43,954 bases of DNA from Chromatiales bacterium (GCA_026982395.1 JALSHD010000175.1:1-43954); one strand, 5' to 3'. Counted from the first letter of the stretch, positions 7,912 through 14,603 are shown. Translations and numbers: made by a program. The notes: generated from the letters alone by a model not told the origin.

Positions 7912-9729
7912 TTGGAAGAACAGGTCGGCAAGCTCTGGCACAGTTTTATTACCGGACGGACAACAACCGGCTACCCTCAGGCGGCCATATCTTTTTCGCA
8001 ATTGTCCCGTGGGCTAAGTATCTTCTATCGTGCAGCGGGGGGCGACCCCGCAAAAACCATGAGCTGCACAGATAAAAGACGACTGCGCACCCGGCGTGCC
8101 TGGCTGGTTCGTGTTGCGGGTACACAGCAACGTTTTTCAATGGCTTGGCAGGACGAGAAGGGAGTCTATTTTCCCGAGCAGATTGATCTGTTTTCCCAGA
8201 CAGAGCTCAACAAGACACTCTATTTCTGGCTTGCGGCAATGGCTGCACAGCTACCCCTTCATTTCGACTGGTTCCGGGACAACCAGATTGCAACCCGGAC
8301 ACTGCTGGACAGATATCCCGGATTCAGGGAACACTACAGAATGATGGCAGCTACTCTCGTTACGCAGCGGAAAAATCTGATATGTAAAACGGAGGCTGAG
8401 AAACGCAGGGAAAAAGTCATAATCCATGCGCTCAATCATCCGGTTGATTGCATAGAGTTTCCGGTAGCGGACAGAGACAGCCACCCGGTACCATTGTGGC
8501 TCTACCCGGCACTGTCAACTCAACATGTGACAGAAGAAAACGAGCAACCACTGCCAAATCAGAACACCGAAAAACAACAAACAGAAACTGTAACCGTACG
8601 CAAGCAGGCCAAACGGACAGACGACAGAAAAAAGACCGATGGACTACTGATATTCATCCCAGACAGCCTGTTCAGCTGGACCGAACATATCAATATGGAT
8701 CGCTCAGAGGACGATACCTTCGACGAAAACGCCGCATTCATCGCTCAGGATCTGGATGACCTGACTCTGGGAAACCGGGAAAATGGCATCGCATCACGAC
8801 TGAAAATCGATCTGGATCTGCCCTCCTCCGATGCGGATGATTTTCCCGTCGGCCCGGGCATCCGCCTGCCAGAATGGCACTACAAACGCCACAGTTATAT
8901 CACTCACTACTGCCAGCTCCAACCCCTGATCAGTGCGGATGCAGAACCGACCGAACTGCCAGTACATCTAAAACCGGTAGCAAGGCGGCTGAAAAGCCAG
9001 CTGGAGAGCTTCCGGCTGGGCAAGAACAGACTGAGACGACAGCTGTTTGGTGACGAGATCAATCTGGACTCCTGGCTGGAACACACTACCAGCGCCACAC
9101 AACAAGTGACAGGACAGAACTTTTTCAACCGCATCGACCAGCACCAACGGGATCTCTCAACCTTGATCCTTGCCGATTTGTCACTCTCCACCGAGGCTGC
9201 CATCGATAACGATACCCGGATTATCGATGTCATTCGTGACTCCCTGCTACAGTTTGGAGAGGCCATCCACACTCTGGACGACAATTTTGCCATGTACGGA
9301 TTCTCATCGGTGCGTAACAAAATGATCCGCTACCATATCCTGAAAAACTTTAACGAAAGCTATGACGATACAATCCGTGGCCGAATCCTGTCTGTCAAAC
9401 CCGGGTTCTATACCCGGCTCGGTGCTGCAATCCGGCAGTCAACCAGAATATTGGCCCGGCAGCCTTCAGAACATAAACTGCTACTCATCATCAGCGATGG
9501 CAAACCCAACGATATCGATCGTTACGAAGGACGCTACGGTATAGAGGACACCCGCAAGGCAGTGCAGGAGGCAAAAAGTGAAGGCCTCGCACCGTTCTGT
9601 ATTACGGTGGACAGTGATGCCAACAACTACCTGCCCTACCTGTTTGGCAACCGTGGCTACAGCGTGCTCCACAACAGCCTGAAACTGCCGCAGGTACTAC
9701 CCGAAATCTATCTTGGCCTCACCCAATAA
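7912..9729 (+). CDS. norD: Nitric oxide reductase activation protein NorD
   Basis: A 605-residue soluble protein needed to assemble active NOR together with the ATPase NorQ. The C-terminal third is a von Willebrand A domain with a metal-ion-dependent adhesion site: D-L-S-L-S-T (about 420), a Thr near 500 and S-D-G-K-P-N-D (about 527). The middle is a charged, poorly conserved linker. TTG at 7912 is used as start because GGAGGA lies 6 bases upstream. norQ follows after 23 bases. The pairing of a VWA protein with a MoxR-type AAA+ ATPase is the usual NorQ-NorD metal-insertion arrangement. Confidence 0.92.
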   Translation: MEEQVGKLWHSFITGRTTTGYPQAAISFSQLSRGLSIFYRAAGGDPAKTMSCTDKRRLRTRRAWLVRVAGTQQRFSMAWQDEKGVYFPEQIDLFSQTELNKTLYFWLAAMAAQLPLHFDWFRDNQIATRTLLDRYPGFREHYRMMAATLVTQRKNLICKTEAEKRREKVIIHALNHPVDCIEFPVADRDSHPVPLWLYPALSTQHVTEENEQPLPNQNTEKQQTETVTVRKQAKRTDDRKKTDGLLIFIPDSLFSWTEHINMDRSEDDTFDENAAFIAQDLDDLTLGNRENGIASRLKIDLDLPSSDADDFPVGPGIRLPEWHYKRHSYITHYCQLQPLISADAEPTELPVHLKPVARRLKSQLESFRLGKNRLRRQLFGDEINLDSWLEHTTSATQQVTGQNFFNRIDQHQRDLSTLILADLSLSTEAAIDNDTRIIDVIRDSLLQFGEAIHTLDDNFAMYGFSSVRNKMIRYHILKNFNESYDDTIRGRILSVKPGFYTRLGAAIRQSTRILARQPSEHKLLLIISDGKPNDIDRYEGRYGIEDTRKAVQEAKSEGLAPFCITVDSDANNYLPYLFGNRGYSVLHNSLKLPQVLPEIYLGLTQ

Positions 9730-9752
9730 ACGATGGCCCAAAGGAGGAAAAC

Positions 9753-10553
9753 ATGACCAGCAGCTGTTACTACCTGCCCCAAAACAACGAAATCGAGTTA
9801 TTTTGCTACGCCGCCGAACTGCAACTCCCGGTGCTGATCAAAGGGCCAACCGGATGCGGAAAAACCCGTTTTGTCGAACACATGGGAGAGAAGCTGAACC
9901 GGCCTGTTTACACCGTCGCCTGTCACGATGACCTTACCGCCGCTGATCTGATCGGACGCCACCTTATCAATTCAGAAGGCACCTACTGGCAGGATGGTCC
10001 GCTGACAAGAGCAGTACGCGAAGGCGGCATCTGCTACCTGGATGAGGTGGTGGAAGCACGCAAGGATACCACAGTAGTACTCCATCCCCTGGCGGACTAC
10101 CGTCGCGTCCTGCCACTGGATCGAACCGGCGAAACCATCCAGGCACACAAAAATTTCATGCTGGTGGTCTCCTATAACCCAGGCTACCAGAACCTGTTAA
10201 AAGGGATGAAACCCAGTACACGACAACGTTTCATCTCACTTCAGTTCAACTACCCTGAAGAGCAGCAAGAGACAGAAATCATCATGGCAGAAACAGGTAT
10301 CGACAGCAAAACCGCCCGGCACCTTGTCAGGCTTGGAAAAGAGATACGGCGCCTGAAAGATCACGATCTGCAGGAGATGGTCTCAACCCGGCTGCTGGTC
10401 TATGCAGCACTGCTAATCGAAAAAGGATTCCCCAAAAGAGACGCCTGCGTTCACTGCCTGGCAGAGTCGCTTACCGATGATGCTGAAACATTCCAAAGCC
10501 TTGTGCAGCTGATCAATCTGCACTTTCTGTCCGGCAAAGAGCAGGCCGCTTGA
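9753..10553 (+). CDS. norQ: MoxR-type AAA+ ATPase NorQ
   Basis: A 266-residue AAA+ ATPase that works with NorD to insert the non-haem iron FeB into NorB. The Walker A motif G-P-T-G-C-G-K-T is at 31-38 and Walker B is I-C-Y-L-D-E (about 92-97), followed by a sensor-1 region V-V-S-Y-N-P-G. An AAAGGAGG ribosome-binding site precedes the ATG. Its TGA overlaps the TTG start of the next gene by four bases (TTGA), so norE is translationally coupled. Confidence 0.94.
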   Translation: MTSSCYYLPQNNEIELFCYAAELQLPVLIKGPTGCGKTRFVEHMGEKLNRPVYTVACHDDLTAADLIGRHLINSEGTYWQDGPLTRAVREGGICYLDEVVEARKDTTVVLHPLADYRRVLPLDRTGETIQAHKNFMLVVSYNPGYQNLLKGMKPSTRQRFISLQFNYPEEQQETEIIMAETGIDSKTARHLVRLGKEIRRLKDHDLQEMVSTRLLVYAALLIEKGFPKRDACVHCLAESLTDDAETFQSLVQLINLHFLSGKEQAA

Positions 10554-11146
10554 GCAAACCGGCTACAATAGGAAAGCAATCAGTATCACCTTCCAGATAC
10601 ACACCTGGAAATCCCGCCGTGTGGGTATTCGTCCTCTCGGAAATGTCCGAGTTCGCCTTCTTCTTCACGGTTTTTCTGGTCGTCAAGCTGCTCCATCCTG
10701 AACTGTTCAGCACAGCTCCGGCACAGCTGAACACAAAAGCCGGGCTTGCCAATACACTACTGTTGATCACCAGCAGCTGGTTTGTCGCCAACGCGGTCAG
10801 GGCAGCCAGGTCCGCAAAACGGAAAAAAAGCATGGGCTGGTTGGCGCTCACAATTACAGCGGGACTGCTCTACTGCGCCATCAAATATCTGGAGTATCTC
10901 TGGAATGTTGAGCACGGAATCAGCACTCGCACCAATATTTTTTTCGCTCTCTACTACTACCTGGCATTCAATCACCTGCTGCATGTGCTGATCGGCATCT
11001 GCGTTATCGGCTGGGCACTGCTGCAAAGCTGGCTCGGATCGTATGACAGCGAAAACCTTGGTGGACTGGAGGGCGCAGCAACCTACTGGCACATGATTGA
11101 TCTGGTATGGATCCTTCTTTTTCCCATGCTCTATATAGTGGGGTGA
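10550..11146 (+). CDS. norE: Cytochrome oxidase subunit III-like protein NorE
   Basis: A 198-residue membrane protein of the haem-copper oxidase subunit III family with about five helices. Typical features are W-V-F-V-L-S-E-M-S-E-F (24-34), the central Y-L-E-Y block and H-x-L-H-V-L-I-G. NorE is not part of purified cNOR but raises its activity in Paracoccus and relatives. The start is TTG inside the norQ stop (TTGA), the only arrangement that keeps the conserved N-terminus. norF follows after 3 bases. Confidence 0.85.
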   Translation: MSKPATIGKQSVSPSRYTPGNPAVWVFVLSEMSEFAFFFTVFLVVKLLHPELFSTAPAQLNTKAGLANTLLLITSSWFVANAVRAARSAKRKKSMGWLALTITAGLLYCAIKYLEYLWNVEHGISTRTNIFFALYYYLAFNHLLHVLIGICVIGWALLQSWLGSYDSENLGGLEGAATYWHMIDLVWILLFPMLYIVG

Positions 11147-11149
11147 AAA

Positions 11150-11413
11150 TTGAACAATCTTACTCGAAACCCGTTAAACAGAGTATGGTTCATTCTGATC
11201 AGTTTAACCCTGCTTACGGCGGCAATTCCGGAAAACGATAGTTTAACAACCGCTTCTGCCGCTTTCATCAGCGTGCTTGTTATCATAAAGGGGCGTTTGA
11301 TAATCCGGGACTATATGGACATGAAAAAGGCACATCCAATACTCTATTGGTCCCTGGTTCTCTACATGGTTCTGTTTTCCATCGCCATGCTGGTGATTCC
11401 AGCAATTACGTAA
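11150..11413 (+). CDS. norF: Small membrane protein NorF (cytochrome oxidase subunit IV-like)
   Basis: An 87-residue protein with three predicted helices (about 11-27, 33-48 and 63-85). Its place after norE, its size, and the motif K-G-R-L-I-I-R-D-Y-M-D-M before a short loop and last helix match the NorF/prokaryotic cytochrome c oxidase subunit IV family. Start TTG at 11150 follows a GGGGTG stretch just after the norE stop. It probably helps NOR maturation or stability; it is not catalytic. Confidence 0.75.
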   Translation: MNNLTRNPLNRVWFILISLTLLTAAIPENDSLTTASAAFISVLVIIKGRLIIRDYMDMKKAHPILYWSLVLYMVLFSIAMLVIPAIT

Positions 11414-11568: not shown

Positions 11569-12753
11569 TCAGGAATATTTATCCATCAAAATTTTCATTG
11601 ATTTTCTCAAGCGCTCAATGGCAACAGCAAGATCTTTGGTTTCATCATTTGAATTCACCTCTATCTTGCTATTGAGGTTGCCTTTGCTCATATTATGAGT
11701 CGCCATTGTCAAATAAACAATCGGGTTTGCTATAGAGCCAGCCAACACCAACGCAATAATTACTGTAATGACTATAGCAAGTAACGCGATCATGACGAAA
11801 ACATTCTTGAAACTTGTTACAGACTGATAGACGACTGAATTGGGAACCTTGTCAATCAGTGTTCCCAACAACACCTTACGCTCCCGATCTGCAAAAATCG
11901 GTGAGGTAGAGACCATAAAATCACCGATTTCAAGGGTTGCTGCCGAAGGGGAGTTCACTACCTTGGCAGCAAGTTCGGGCTCGTCTTTTACAAGACTATG
12001 ACCGGTATTTAAATCAGCGGGACTTCCCCAGGATTTTTCCGGCTCGATGTGAGCCTGATAAAACCCTTTGCTATCCACCATGGCCATGGTTTCCCCAAAA
12101 GCATTCGATCTGTTGATATCATCAAGGAATTTTGATGCCAGAACATTCAGAATCAACATGCCACGAAGGTTGTTATGATCATCATAAACGGGGGTCGCAT
12201 ATCTTATTGTTGGCCTGACCGGCTGTTCGACGACACCTTTTTCCCGATTAAGGTCAAGAGGAGATATCATGACCCCGCCATTTGTCATCGCGATGGTATC
12301 ATCAAAGTAGTAGCGCCCCTTCTTGTTTTGAAGCCTGTCATCTGCTACCACTTTGCTCATGCCGCGTATGCGGTCGACCCGAACAACCTCCATACCGGTA
12401 GTGTCCAGAAAGCGAATTTGGTGGTATATCTCCCTGTTTGCGGACAGACTCAAAAAATCCTGTGACAGACTCTTCCTGGCACTGGCGACAGCGTCCGGAC
12501 TTCCACTAGCCAACGCGCGGTAAAGATTTGTCACCGCTGACGAGTCACGAAGATAAAACAGATCCACATATACATTGCCAAGGAAACTCTCGATACTCGA
12601 TGCCAACGATTCGACTTTCGCCTTAAGTCTCTCCTCGCTGCTTTTTCCCAAAGCATTCGTTGTCGAGTACAGCCCATATCCACCAATCAACAATGCAGGT
12701 ATAAGCGCCACAATCAGTAACGAAAATATCAGTTTATTTCGGATTTTATCCAC
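11569..12753 (-). CDS. Cache-HAMP membrane receptor without output domain
   Basis: A 394-residue protein with an inner-membrane helix (about 8-28), a large periplasmic region (about 30-315) with features of a double Cache sensor (F-L-D-x-T-G-M-E-V-V-R-V-D near 115, P-V-Y-D-D near 190), a second helix (about 318-338) and a HAMP domain to about 385. It then simply ends: no methyl-accepting, kinase, GGDEF or other output follows. GTG at 12753 with GGGGAG five bases upstream is the likely start. It is the last gene of a three-gene unit with two Roadblock proteins, one fused to a small GTPase, so the HAMP may signal to those partners. The ligand is unknown. Confidence 0.75.
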   Translation of the reverse strand: MDKIRNKLIFSLLIVALIPALLIGGYGLYSTTNALGKSSEERLKAKVESLASSIESFLGNVYVDLFYLRDSSAVTNLYRALASGSPDAVASARKSLSQDFLSLSANREIYHQIRFLDTTGMEVVRVDRIRGMSKVVADDRLQNKKGRYYFDDTIAMTNGGVMISPLDLNREKGVVEQPVRPTIRYATPVYDDHNNLRGMLILNVLASKFLDDINRSNAFGETMAMVDSKGFYQAHIEPEKSWGSPADLNTGHSLVKDEPELAAKVVNSPSAATLEIGDFMVSTSPIFADRERKVLLGTLIDKVPNSVVYQSVTSFKNVFVMIALLAIVITVIIALVLAGSIANPIVYLTMATHNMSKGNLNSKIEVNSNDETKDLAVAIERLRKSMKILMDKYS

Positions 12754-12786
12754 TTTTCTCCCCTGTTTTTTCTAAAGTGGCGTGAT

Positions 12787-13428
12787 CTAGATTTTATTGA
12801 GAAGTGTCTCCAGCTCGTCGCGAAACTCCTGCCGGGATGCCTCATCATCAATATCCTCTGCCAGGATATCTACCAACACCGGCAGGTTTTTTCTGCTAGG
12901 TTCAAAAGAGCTTCTCCAGGTTTTTAGCGCTTCACCCATGGTAATTCTCGCTACCGGACCGATCTGTAACGTAAGAGACTCCAGTATTTCATTGAGGTAA
13001 GGCTTCAAACCGTGATCTATTTTCTGGTTTGTGGGACGCTGCATAGCCGGGGAAGCGGAAGGGGGAGGAGGCACAGGATCTTTCGGAGATTGGGAAGCGA
13101 GCTCTTCGCTTATTTGCGGAGCAGCTGATTTCACGGTCATGTGGATAAGCGCAAAATTGACATCTTTACCCGTCAACAGCAGGACAACAATACCCCCGTC
13201 AACGGGATACCCGAGGAGATAATTCTCCTCCATCTCGAAATAGATCTCATCATATGAACGCTTGACACTGGAAGCTCCCTTGAAGATCCGATCAGTGATT
13301 TTTCCAATTGAGGTAAGGTTCTCATTTAACAGAGAAGGGAAAGTGGTGGCCAGAACATCACCCTCTTTGACAATGCAGCCATGATACACGCCCCCAAGCG
13401 AACCAAGCTCTTCCAGAATATCTTTCAT
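12787..13428 (-). CDS. Roadblock/LC7-like protein with a C-terminal helical domain
   Basis: A 213-residue cytoplasmic protein. Residues 1-103 look like a diverged Roadblock/LC7 fold (opening M-K-D-I-L-E-E-L, then a G-C-I-V-K-E-G-D-V-L-A strand pair, a long helix, and strands around G-G-I-V-V-L-L-L-T). A proline-rich linker (about 120-132) leads to a helical C-terminal part with I-G-P-V-A-R-I-T-M-G-E-A (about 155-166), a motif also seen at the C-terminus of some bacterial Ser/Thr kinases and cyclases. ATG at 13428 overlaps the TGA of the GTPase gene (ATGA), so the two are translationally coupled; a GTG four codons upstream is possible. Function is inferred only from partners. Confidence 0.65.
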   Translation of the reverse strand: MKDILEELGSLGGVYHGCIVKEGDVLATTFPSLLNENLTSIGKITDRIFKGASSVKRSYDEIYFEMEENYLLGYPVDGGIVVLLLTGKDVNFALIHMTVKSAAPQISEELASQSPKDPVPPPPSASPAMQRPTNQKIDHGLKPYLNEILESLTLQIGPVARITMGEALKTWRSSFEPSRKNLPVLVDILAEDIDDEASRQEFRDELETLLNKI

Positions 13429-14603
13429 TTCCCACCCCACTGAAGCACATTGTCAATCTGCTGGTTCAGCATGCGAATGGAAATTTTTCCGCCCGAGACC
13501 ACACATAATGTCTGTTCATCTTCAAGATATAACGTCAGATTATCTTCTGTGGAACTTTTTAACGTAACACTTTTCAGCCCACCGAGATTGGAGGTTTTCT
13601 CAAAGGCTTTCGAAATTCCGGACAGAAAACTGATGAACTCATTGAGCTCCATCTCTTCGATTGAAGATGCCGTAATATCTCCCATCGAGCTAACCAGGGC
13701 AGCACTTTTTACCCCTTTGATATTTATCACCTCGTCCACAATGGATTCTTTCATAACAACCTTCTCCACATACTCCCCGTTTCCATCAAGGTTGTTATAT
13801 GTGCTGCTCTGCGTCCTTGATGCTGACATCAACCCGTTTTCACTGTCTGTCCGTTCAGCTTCCCTCACCTCTTCCCTTTTCGCGACTGTATCCTTTTTTC
13901 CAGGATTTGCTGTTAACTGAGGAACGATATCATGAACAGTAGGAACGCTCTGTTCATGATCGCGATTCAGACCATGCAATTGTGATGACGATATTTTTTT
14001 TGAAGGCCCCATATCAATTTCCTTTGGCAACTTATTTGCGAAACAGACAACCCGTTGCTCGCTGGAACAACTAACCCCCTGCAACAACACTCCAACAATC
14101 TGTAACACATCCCGCTCTTTTCTGGCATCAATCTGCGTCACAAAAGCGGAAATAGAACGCCTATTTAGCCAGACCCTGTAATCATTCAATGAAGGTGATG
14201 GACGAACATCTGCATGAGTAACGGCGATAACCAGTCTCTTGGTTGCAAGAAGATGCTTAACCTCCCTCAAATAGTGCATCAAATCCCTGAATGGATAGTT
14301 TCGTGCATTGTCGACGAAAATTGCCAAACCGATACAGTCTTTCGCTATATCATTCGCCAGGATATCCAACATAAATCCGAAGCGCCCCTGGCCAGGAGTT
14401 CCATACAAATGTACCTGCTCATCCTTCCCAATCTGAAGCACACCATTATCCATCGCAACGGTGGTTTTGGCTTTTCTCACTCCACTGTCATTTGAAACTT
14501 TTACATCACTGTCCCTGTATATCAGGTTACTGACAGAACGAATTGCGGTTGTTTTTCCGGCACCAACGGGTCCGGTAAATATGAGCTTGAAAGTCTTCAT
14601 CAT
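13425..14603 (-). CDS. Small GTPase fused to a Roadblock/LC7 domain
   Basis: A 392-residue fusion. Residues 1-175 form a small Ras-like GTPase of the SAR1/MglA-like bacterial type (COG2229-like): P-loop G-P-V-G-A-G-K-T-T (11-19), switch T-T-V-A-M-D (47-52), G3 as Y-G-T-P-G-Q-G-R-F (67-75, the family's variant of DxxG), G4 as T-H-A-D (129-132) instead of NKxD, and G5 near 160. A polar linker (about 180-285) leads to a Roadblock/LC7 domain (about 290-385, I-K-G-V-K-S-A-A-L-V-S-S). In Myxococcus and Streptomyces, GTPase and Roadblock regulator are separate proteins; here one chain holds both. Start ATG at 14603 or 14600. Confidence 0.75.
   Translation of the reverse strand: MMKTFKLIFTGPVGAGKTTAIRSVSNLIYRDSDVKVSNDSGVRKAKTTVAMDNGVLQIGKDEQVHLYGTPGQGRFGFMLDILANDIAKDCIGLAIFVDNARNYPFRDLMHYLREVKHLLATKRLVIAVTHADVRPSPSLNDYRVWLNRRSISAFVTQIDARKERDVLQIVGVLLQGVSCSSEQRVVCFANKLPKEIDMGPSKKISSSQLHGLNRDHEQSVPTVHDIVPQLTANPGKKDTVAKREEVREAERTDSENGLMSASRTQSSTYNNLDGNGEYVEKVVMKESIVDEVINIKGVKSAALVSSMGDITASSIEEMELNEFISFLSGISKAFEKTSNLGGLKSVTLKSSTEDNLTLYLEDEQTLCVVSGGKISIRMLNQQIDNVLQWGGK

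Follow-up and report, generated by a model that had tools for sequence, protein, structure and literature searches.

Gene content, organisation and distribution of the operon

The window (the whole stretch of DNA analysed: 43,954 nucleotides, Chromatiales bacterium, GCA_026982395.1 JALSHD010000175.1:1-43954) carries three adjoining genes on its minus strand, transcribed in the order p1 (14603-13425), p2 (13428-12787) and p3 (12753-11569). p1 (13425..14603, minus strand, 392 aa; identified by ORF, Pfam, family conservation and dN/dS) encodes a GTPase fused to a Roadblock domain. p2 (12787..13428, minus strand) encodes a putative adapter protein with a Roadblock and a STAC-like domain, of 213 aa if the ATG at 13428 is taken as start; the ORF as listed has 217 aa and starts 12 bp upstream of this ATG. 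p3 (11569..12753, minus strand, 394 aa; ORF and Pfam) encodes a Cache-HAMP receptor with no output domain, termed output-less below. The stop of p1 and the start of p2 overlap in an ATGA (13425..13428, minus strand; translational coupling), and p2 and p3 are spaced by 33 bp. The three genes form one operon. The identical p1/p2 overlap was found at three other loci (L025, L028 and L029). A sequence-only reading of this DNA had described the three minus-strand genes and their ATGA coupling, and all three ORFs were recovered at the coordinates given above.

The trio was present in four of the eight sampled genomes of the genus (G000, the window's own, and G001, G002 and G004), with identities of 53-86% among relatives. 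In G004 (L027), all three genes stand beside the same norDQ-type genes as in the window. G001 (L028) carries all three in a different context; in G002, p2 and p3 share one contig (L057) and p1 is split across two contig ends (L030, L057). The p1-p2 pair is present in G007 (L029; genome 91% complete), where no receptor was detected anywhere in the genome, and a receptor remnant is kept in G005 (L058). G003 yielded neither a p1 fusion nor p2 nor a close relative of p3. In comparison with G004, dN/dS was ~0.22 for p1, ~0.09 for p2 and ~0.06 for p3, and the variable parts of the proteins were the linkers; the trio is under purifying selection. Because of its conservation in these four genomes and its low dN/dS, the trio is more than a chance assembly. 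The gene order is thus kept within the genus; the proposed spread across the gammaproteobacteria was not recovered, as no trio was found outside the genus in samples of 56, 114 and 369 genomes (queries: p1, p2 and the p2 profile). The placement of these genomes in the gammaproteobacteria draws on the sequence-only reading and on a HemE with 74-76% identity to enterobacterial copies. Plasmid records gave no match to the trio (DNA search) or to p2 (protein search).

Other arrangements were recorded around these genes. Next to the trio, NorD/NorQ-like genes are found with COX3- and COX4-like genes (window 7912-11413); this link is absent in G001. On contig C4 of the same genome (L025, 1028-2220), p2 and the Roadblock part of p1 occur in a further copy that has no GTPase domain and no receptor, and a GTPase remnant sought upstream was not found. 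In G006 (L054, 4967-9849), a histidine kinase, a receiver-DUF4388 protein, a p2-like protein (~20% identity to p2), a Cache-like protein and an output-less HAMP receptor are encoded in one row, which suggests that p2-type adapters can also serve other outputs.

The GTPase domain of p1

The N-terminus of p1 is a P-loop GTPase (PF03029, E=4e-7). Residues 1-185 (14049..14603, minus strand) were designated an MglA-type GTPase from the sequence, the motif classes of PMC4316618 and the identity to the GTPase of contig C161. The G motifs are as follows: G1 GPVGAGKT (11-18), G2 TT (47-48), G3 GTPGQ (68-72), G4 THAD (129-132, no Lys) and G5 DAR (159-161). GTPGQ and DAR are common to MglA Groups 2 and 3 (PMC4316618), and the full p1 pattern (these two plus Thr in place of Arg in G2 and a Lys-free G4) is that of Group 3, shared with Group 2. 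The domain is 40% identical to the standalone GTPase of C161 and 40-43% identical to standalone GTPases of the genus; these Group-3-type proteins were the nearest relatives found. The p1 GTPase is therefore best read as a Group-3 MglA-type GTPase, with motifs that, taken by themselves, fit Group 2 equally.

The C161 set (L026, same genome as the window) consists of a 429-aa protein without Pfam domain, a 181-aa GTPase, a 212-aa Roadblock-like protein and a 120-aa Roadblock protein, and its gene order agrees with that published for Group 3 (PMC4316618). When genome contigs were scanned with p1, three weak, distant matches were obtained, in the Roadblock region only. In another genome (G019; L031, 1596-3089), a Ser/Thr kinase is fused to an MglA-type GTPase in a single 497-aa chain.

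The window GTPase carries nine changes at positions that are constant in four relatives; its nearest relative carries three. The changes include E73G, R76G and W79L, just after GTPGQ. As these unusual changes fall in a conserved region, activity may be reduced, and catalysis by the window GTPase is possibly weakened.

The Roadblock domains of p1 and p2

Roadblock domains were detected with family profiles; taken singly, the sequences all fall short of the Pfam cut-off. For p1, the C-terminal domain (residues 278-392; 13428..13772, minus strand) was matched by Robl_LC7 below its cut-off in all six family members (best E=0.01), and the top PDB matches of the C-terminal profile (A10) were all Roadblock structures (7yh1, E=0.0077; 7f8m, E=0.012; 9jq8, E=0.26). 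For p2 (residues 1-110; 13099..13428, minus strand), the single sequence gave no Pfam match, and the family profile (A6) matched over residues 3-106 the Roadblock structure 7f8m (E=0.0014), then Streptomyces CvnB5 (3leq, E=0.35). On the basis of these PDB matches, a Roadblock domain is taken to be present in both proteins even though plain domain scans stay below cut-off. The two Roadblock proteins announced by the sequence-only reading, namely the GTPase-Roadblock fusion and a second protein with a helical tail, were thus both recovered, by way of family profiles only. Single-sequence AlphaFold2 models had low confidence (pLDDT 40 for p2 and 42 for the p1 C-terminus) and were not used for fold searches; hhalign comparisons rested on shallow alignments and had no power.

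The C-terminal domain of p2

The tail of p2 (residues 134-213; 12790..13029, minus strand) is a predicted helical domain with the motif LTLQIGPVARI, delimited with the A7 and A11 profiles and the PDB match to Af1502. It belongs to a module of 65-80 residues with an (L/I)GPxA motif. In a search of the class with the p2 profile, matches outside the genus covered only residues ~115-206 and fell in kinases, cyclases and a DUF4388 protein; the module recurs at the C-terminus, often in tandem, of Ser/Thr kinases, cyclases and DUF4388 proteins. Pfam and NCBIfam searches returned no family for the p2 tail.

The common motif of the STAC family is LGPx(x)A (PMC4834066), and its fold is a four-helix bundle made of two hairpins. 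In p2 it reads IGPVARI; among 64 members, G is invariant and P occurs in at least 90%. With a profile of 13 domain sequences (A7), the top PDB match was Af1502 (E=0.029, over the motif region). A deeper profile of 64 sequences (A11) did not strengthen this match, and Af1502 came only third (E=0.44). This protein is the prototype of STAC and was described by its authors as a singleton in sequence searches; output-less archaeal receptors resembling Af1503 are often coupled to Af1502-type proteins (PMC4834066). SLC5-STAC transceptors were sought among the SSF matches fetched, and none was found. The p2 tail resembles STAC in motif, size and gene partner, and the sequence match is weak; the domain is for this reason called STAC-like.

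Pairing of STAC-like domains with output-less HAMP receptors

The domain-alone profile (A7) matched 35 of 369 genomes of the class. Forty loci were fetched, and the neighbours of 42 genes with the domain were assessed. For 37 of the 42, a same-strand output-less HAMP receptor was present within 600 bp, mostly at less than 50 bp. Complete partner-receptor genes encode two predicted membrane helices (a few were counted as one or three), and the receptor chains end 3-15 residues past the HAMP. The five genes without receptor are two at contig ends (L100, L119), a probable false match (L137, a DUF2063 protein), one in which the GP motif is lost (L138) and one genuine exception, a clear kinase with the domain (L117). 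This test of adjacency was set up once four loci, all included in the 40, had shown the pairing; the work on control kinases, the converse search and the HAMP ranking of the window's own genome came later.

In the control, an output-less HAMP neighbour was found for 20 of 21 Ser/Thr kinases with the domain vs none of 34 kinases of similar size without it. Fisher tests (p=4e-14 for kinases, 1e-16 overall) are indicative and overstate independence, because the genomes sampled differ in how closely related they are. In the converse search of 114 genomes, all ten Tll0287-type sensors with an output-less HAMP were loci already found via the domain, and six other Tll0287-type sensors of intermediate size had no HAMP. 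All 33 partner receptors scanned matched Pfam HAMP, with Tll0287 in 23 and dCache_1 in six. Effectors and sensors were combined as follows: kinase with Tll0287 (17), cyclase with Tll0287 (5), DUF4388-like protein with dCache (9) and DUF4388-like protein with Tll0287 (1). Effectors and sensors are shuffled, and the constants are the HAMP and the STAC-like domain.

Three more loci from a scan of the phylum also carry the receptor-domain pair. A kinase adjoins a receptor in named plasmid records of Caballeronia (three), Paraburkholderia, Skermanella and Rhodovulum. Two of these plasmid pairs were examined; both were confirmed to have the tandem domains and the HAMP, and both adjoin type VI secretion genes. 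At L215, L217 and possibly L140, a Tll0287-HAMP receptor and a STAC-like kinase lie beside the type VI genes TagF, TssM and TssH, and such a pair is a candidate sensor for secretion control. At L108 and L111, a single output-less receptor has a kinase on one side and a cyclase on the other, each carrying tandem STAC-like domains: possibly one sensor with two outputs. A cyanobacterial output-less DUF3365-HAMP receptor is found on a plasmid of Rippkaea orientalis (L214, 3986-4894), with no STAC-like gene beside it. One control Ser/Thr kinase (L180, 3416-5113) has a HAMP-like stretch at its own C-terminus.

The receptor p3

p3 consists of a periplasmic sensor region (residues 34-281; 11911..12654, minus strand; Pfam PF21623 and dCache_1) and a HAMP domain (residues 336-385; 11599..11748, minus strand; Pfam E=1.7e-8). 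Nine residues remain after the Pfam HAMP end, which bears out its earlier description as an output-less Cache-HAMP receptor. Among the 17 HAMP proteins of its own genome, p3 is the sole output-less one, with 2 residues past the profile end vs at least 218 in the others. Its HAMP ranked first of the 17 against a profile of partner-receptor HAMPs (49.5 vs 38.0 bits), which had been built from other genera with the window's genus excluded, and only ninth with the Pfam HAMP model. p3 is the most conserved protein of the trio (86% identity; 88% for HAMP and tail). Like Af1503-type receptors, it has a HAMP as sole cytosolic part and is coupled to a STAC-like gene, the match to STAC itself being weak. 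p3 had been taken for a receptor that lost its kinase; it is better seen as a member of a class of partner-dependent receptors.

Proposed mechanism and alternative explanations

The trio is read as a split transmembrane receptor with a Ras-like GTPase as output, to which a probability of about 0.6 is given. Signals reaching the Cache domain of p3 in the periplasm would alter the HAMP dimer, the sole cytoplasmic part of the receptor; the STAC-like C-terminal domain of p2 would read this HAMP in trans; the Roadblock domain of p2 would pair with that of p1; and the nucleotide state of the GTPase (GTP loading or hydrolysis) would be shifted in cis on p1. The starting points observed directly are the domain content, the operon, the conservation within the genus and the genomic pairing rule. 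From these we infer the docking of the p3 HAMP on the p2 STAC-like domain, the p1-p2 Roadblock heterodimer and, likewise, the direction of GTPase control and a downstream target. The sequence-only reading had the HAMP signalling to the Roadblock protein; this part is supported together with the module and its domains, with the p2 tail as candidate route and strong genomic support for such a route elsewhere. Membership of the conservons is not supported, the gammaproteobacterial spread was not recovered in the samples searched, and nothing here supports a pilus, polarity or motility role. Counting against the split receptor are the p1-p2 pair of G007 and the L025 copy, both without detectable receptor, the L117 kinase without receptor, the cyanobacterial receptor without STAC-like gene, the changes in the window GTPase and the low pLDDT of the models.

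The strongest competitor is a p3 that is independent or decaying and merely shares the operon with p1 and p2, which would then be a self-contained GTPase-regulator pair. The missing receptor in G007 and beside the L025 copy of p2, and the remnant in G005, speak for such a p3, but the receptor is the best conserved of the three proteins (86% identity, dN/dS ~0.06; HAMP and tail 88%) and an output-less HAMP adjoins the domain in 37 of 42 genes elsewhere, so this explanation is unlikely. A role of the STAC-like domain in regulating or sensing solute transport, as proposed for SLC5-kinase STAC, would make the HAMP pairing a matter of shared regulation and not of docking. It draws on that published proposal, on the transport-rich neighbourhoods of Af1503-like receptors (PMC4834066) and on CbrA, in which STAC sits packed below the transporter, whose motions it is proposed to pass on (PMC13022988); the loci found here are, against this, mostly two-gene pairs with signalling proteins, and among the part of the neighbourhoods inspected by eye no transporter stood out as recurrent. 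We hold little expectation for it.

Least probable, with only a slim chance, is a diverged actinobacterial-type conservon whose histidine kinase was lost and whose CvnA survives as p3. One operon does hold a Roadblock protein, a small GTPase and a membrane sensor, CvnB5 is the second PDB match of p2, and the GTPGQ and DAR motifs are those common to MglA Groups 2 and 3. Against this origin, neither a kinase nor CvnC/DUF742 was found on scanning the trio and six genes that flank it, p3 is output-less in four genomes with a HAMP of the partner-receptor type, and the similarity of the GTPase to the standalone proteins of the genus (40-43%) disfavours it.

A wider proposal reaches beyond the window and is given slightly more than an even chance: STAC-like domains would act as a general plug by which output-less HAMP receptors control effectors encoded apart from them, namely kinases, nucleotide cyclases and DUF4388 proteins, and in this genus the plug would carry a Roadblock domain, passing a periplasmic signal to a Ras-like GTPase without kinase or phosphorylation. 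The occurrence of the same plug beside tail-less sensors in many other bacteria suggests a general wiring of sensors to outputs. The pairing rule names a likely partner surface that is testable in simple two-gene systems, and the trio offers a candidate route from a periplasmic signal to a bacterial Ras-like GTPase without histidine kinase. Candidate effectors are also provided for c-type-haem Cache-HAMP proteins, such as the NO-binding protein of Pseudomonas azotoformans (PMC12889525).

Comparison with known systems

As in MglA/MglB of Myxococcus and Thermus (Group 1), a small GTPase would here be controlled by Roadblock proteins; Group 1 MglA is marked by TVPGQ in G3 and by an intrinsic Arg finger (PMC4316618), neither of which p1 has. 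With MglA Group 3 of beta- and gammaproteobacteria (Wuichet and Sogaard-Andersen, PMC4316618), the trio shares GTPGQ, DAR, a G4 without Lys and one GTPase with two Roadblock units. Unlike Group 3, it adds a receptor and joins the GTPase and one Roadblock in a single chain. The receiver/winged-helix-like partner of Group 3 was found neither in the trio nor in the scanned neighbours; a candidate is encoded at C161 in the same genome.

Conservons (CvnA-D) likewise combine a membrane sensor, a Roadblock protein and an MglA-type GTPase in one operon, and the MglB-type Roadblock protein has its counterpart in p2. No CvnA sensor histidine kinase was found in p3 or the genes scanned around it, and CvnC (DUF742) gave no match at E<=1 in p1-p3 or six flanking genes. 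For lack of both the kinase and CvnC, the trio is not a conservon; it differs further by the fusion of the GTPase to its own Roadblock and by the STAC-like tail on the Roadblock protein.

Af1503 is the source of the prototype HAMP structure, and the signalling target of such an output-less receptor has been an open question. The Af1502-Af1503 pair of Archaeoglobus fulgidus (Korycinski et al. 2015, cited in PMC5715377; PMC4834066) resembles the system described here in two respects: the receptor is output-less, its only cytosolic part being the HAMP, and the small helical protein coupled to it has 60-90 residues and the LGPx(x)A motif. The function of STAC has been described as unknown (PMC5715377), and in published bacterial receptors STAC links SLC5 to kinase or GGDEF domains. 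The archaeal STAC stands alone, whereas the STAC-like domain is found here at the C-terminus of soluble effectors and in the window belongs to a Roadblock protein beside a GTPase. The trio is best read as a GTPase-output version of this split-receptor architecture.
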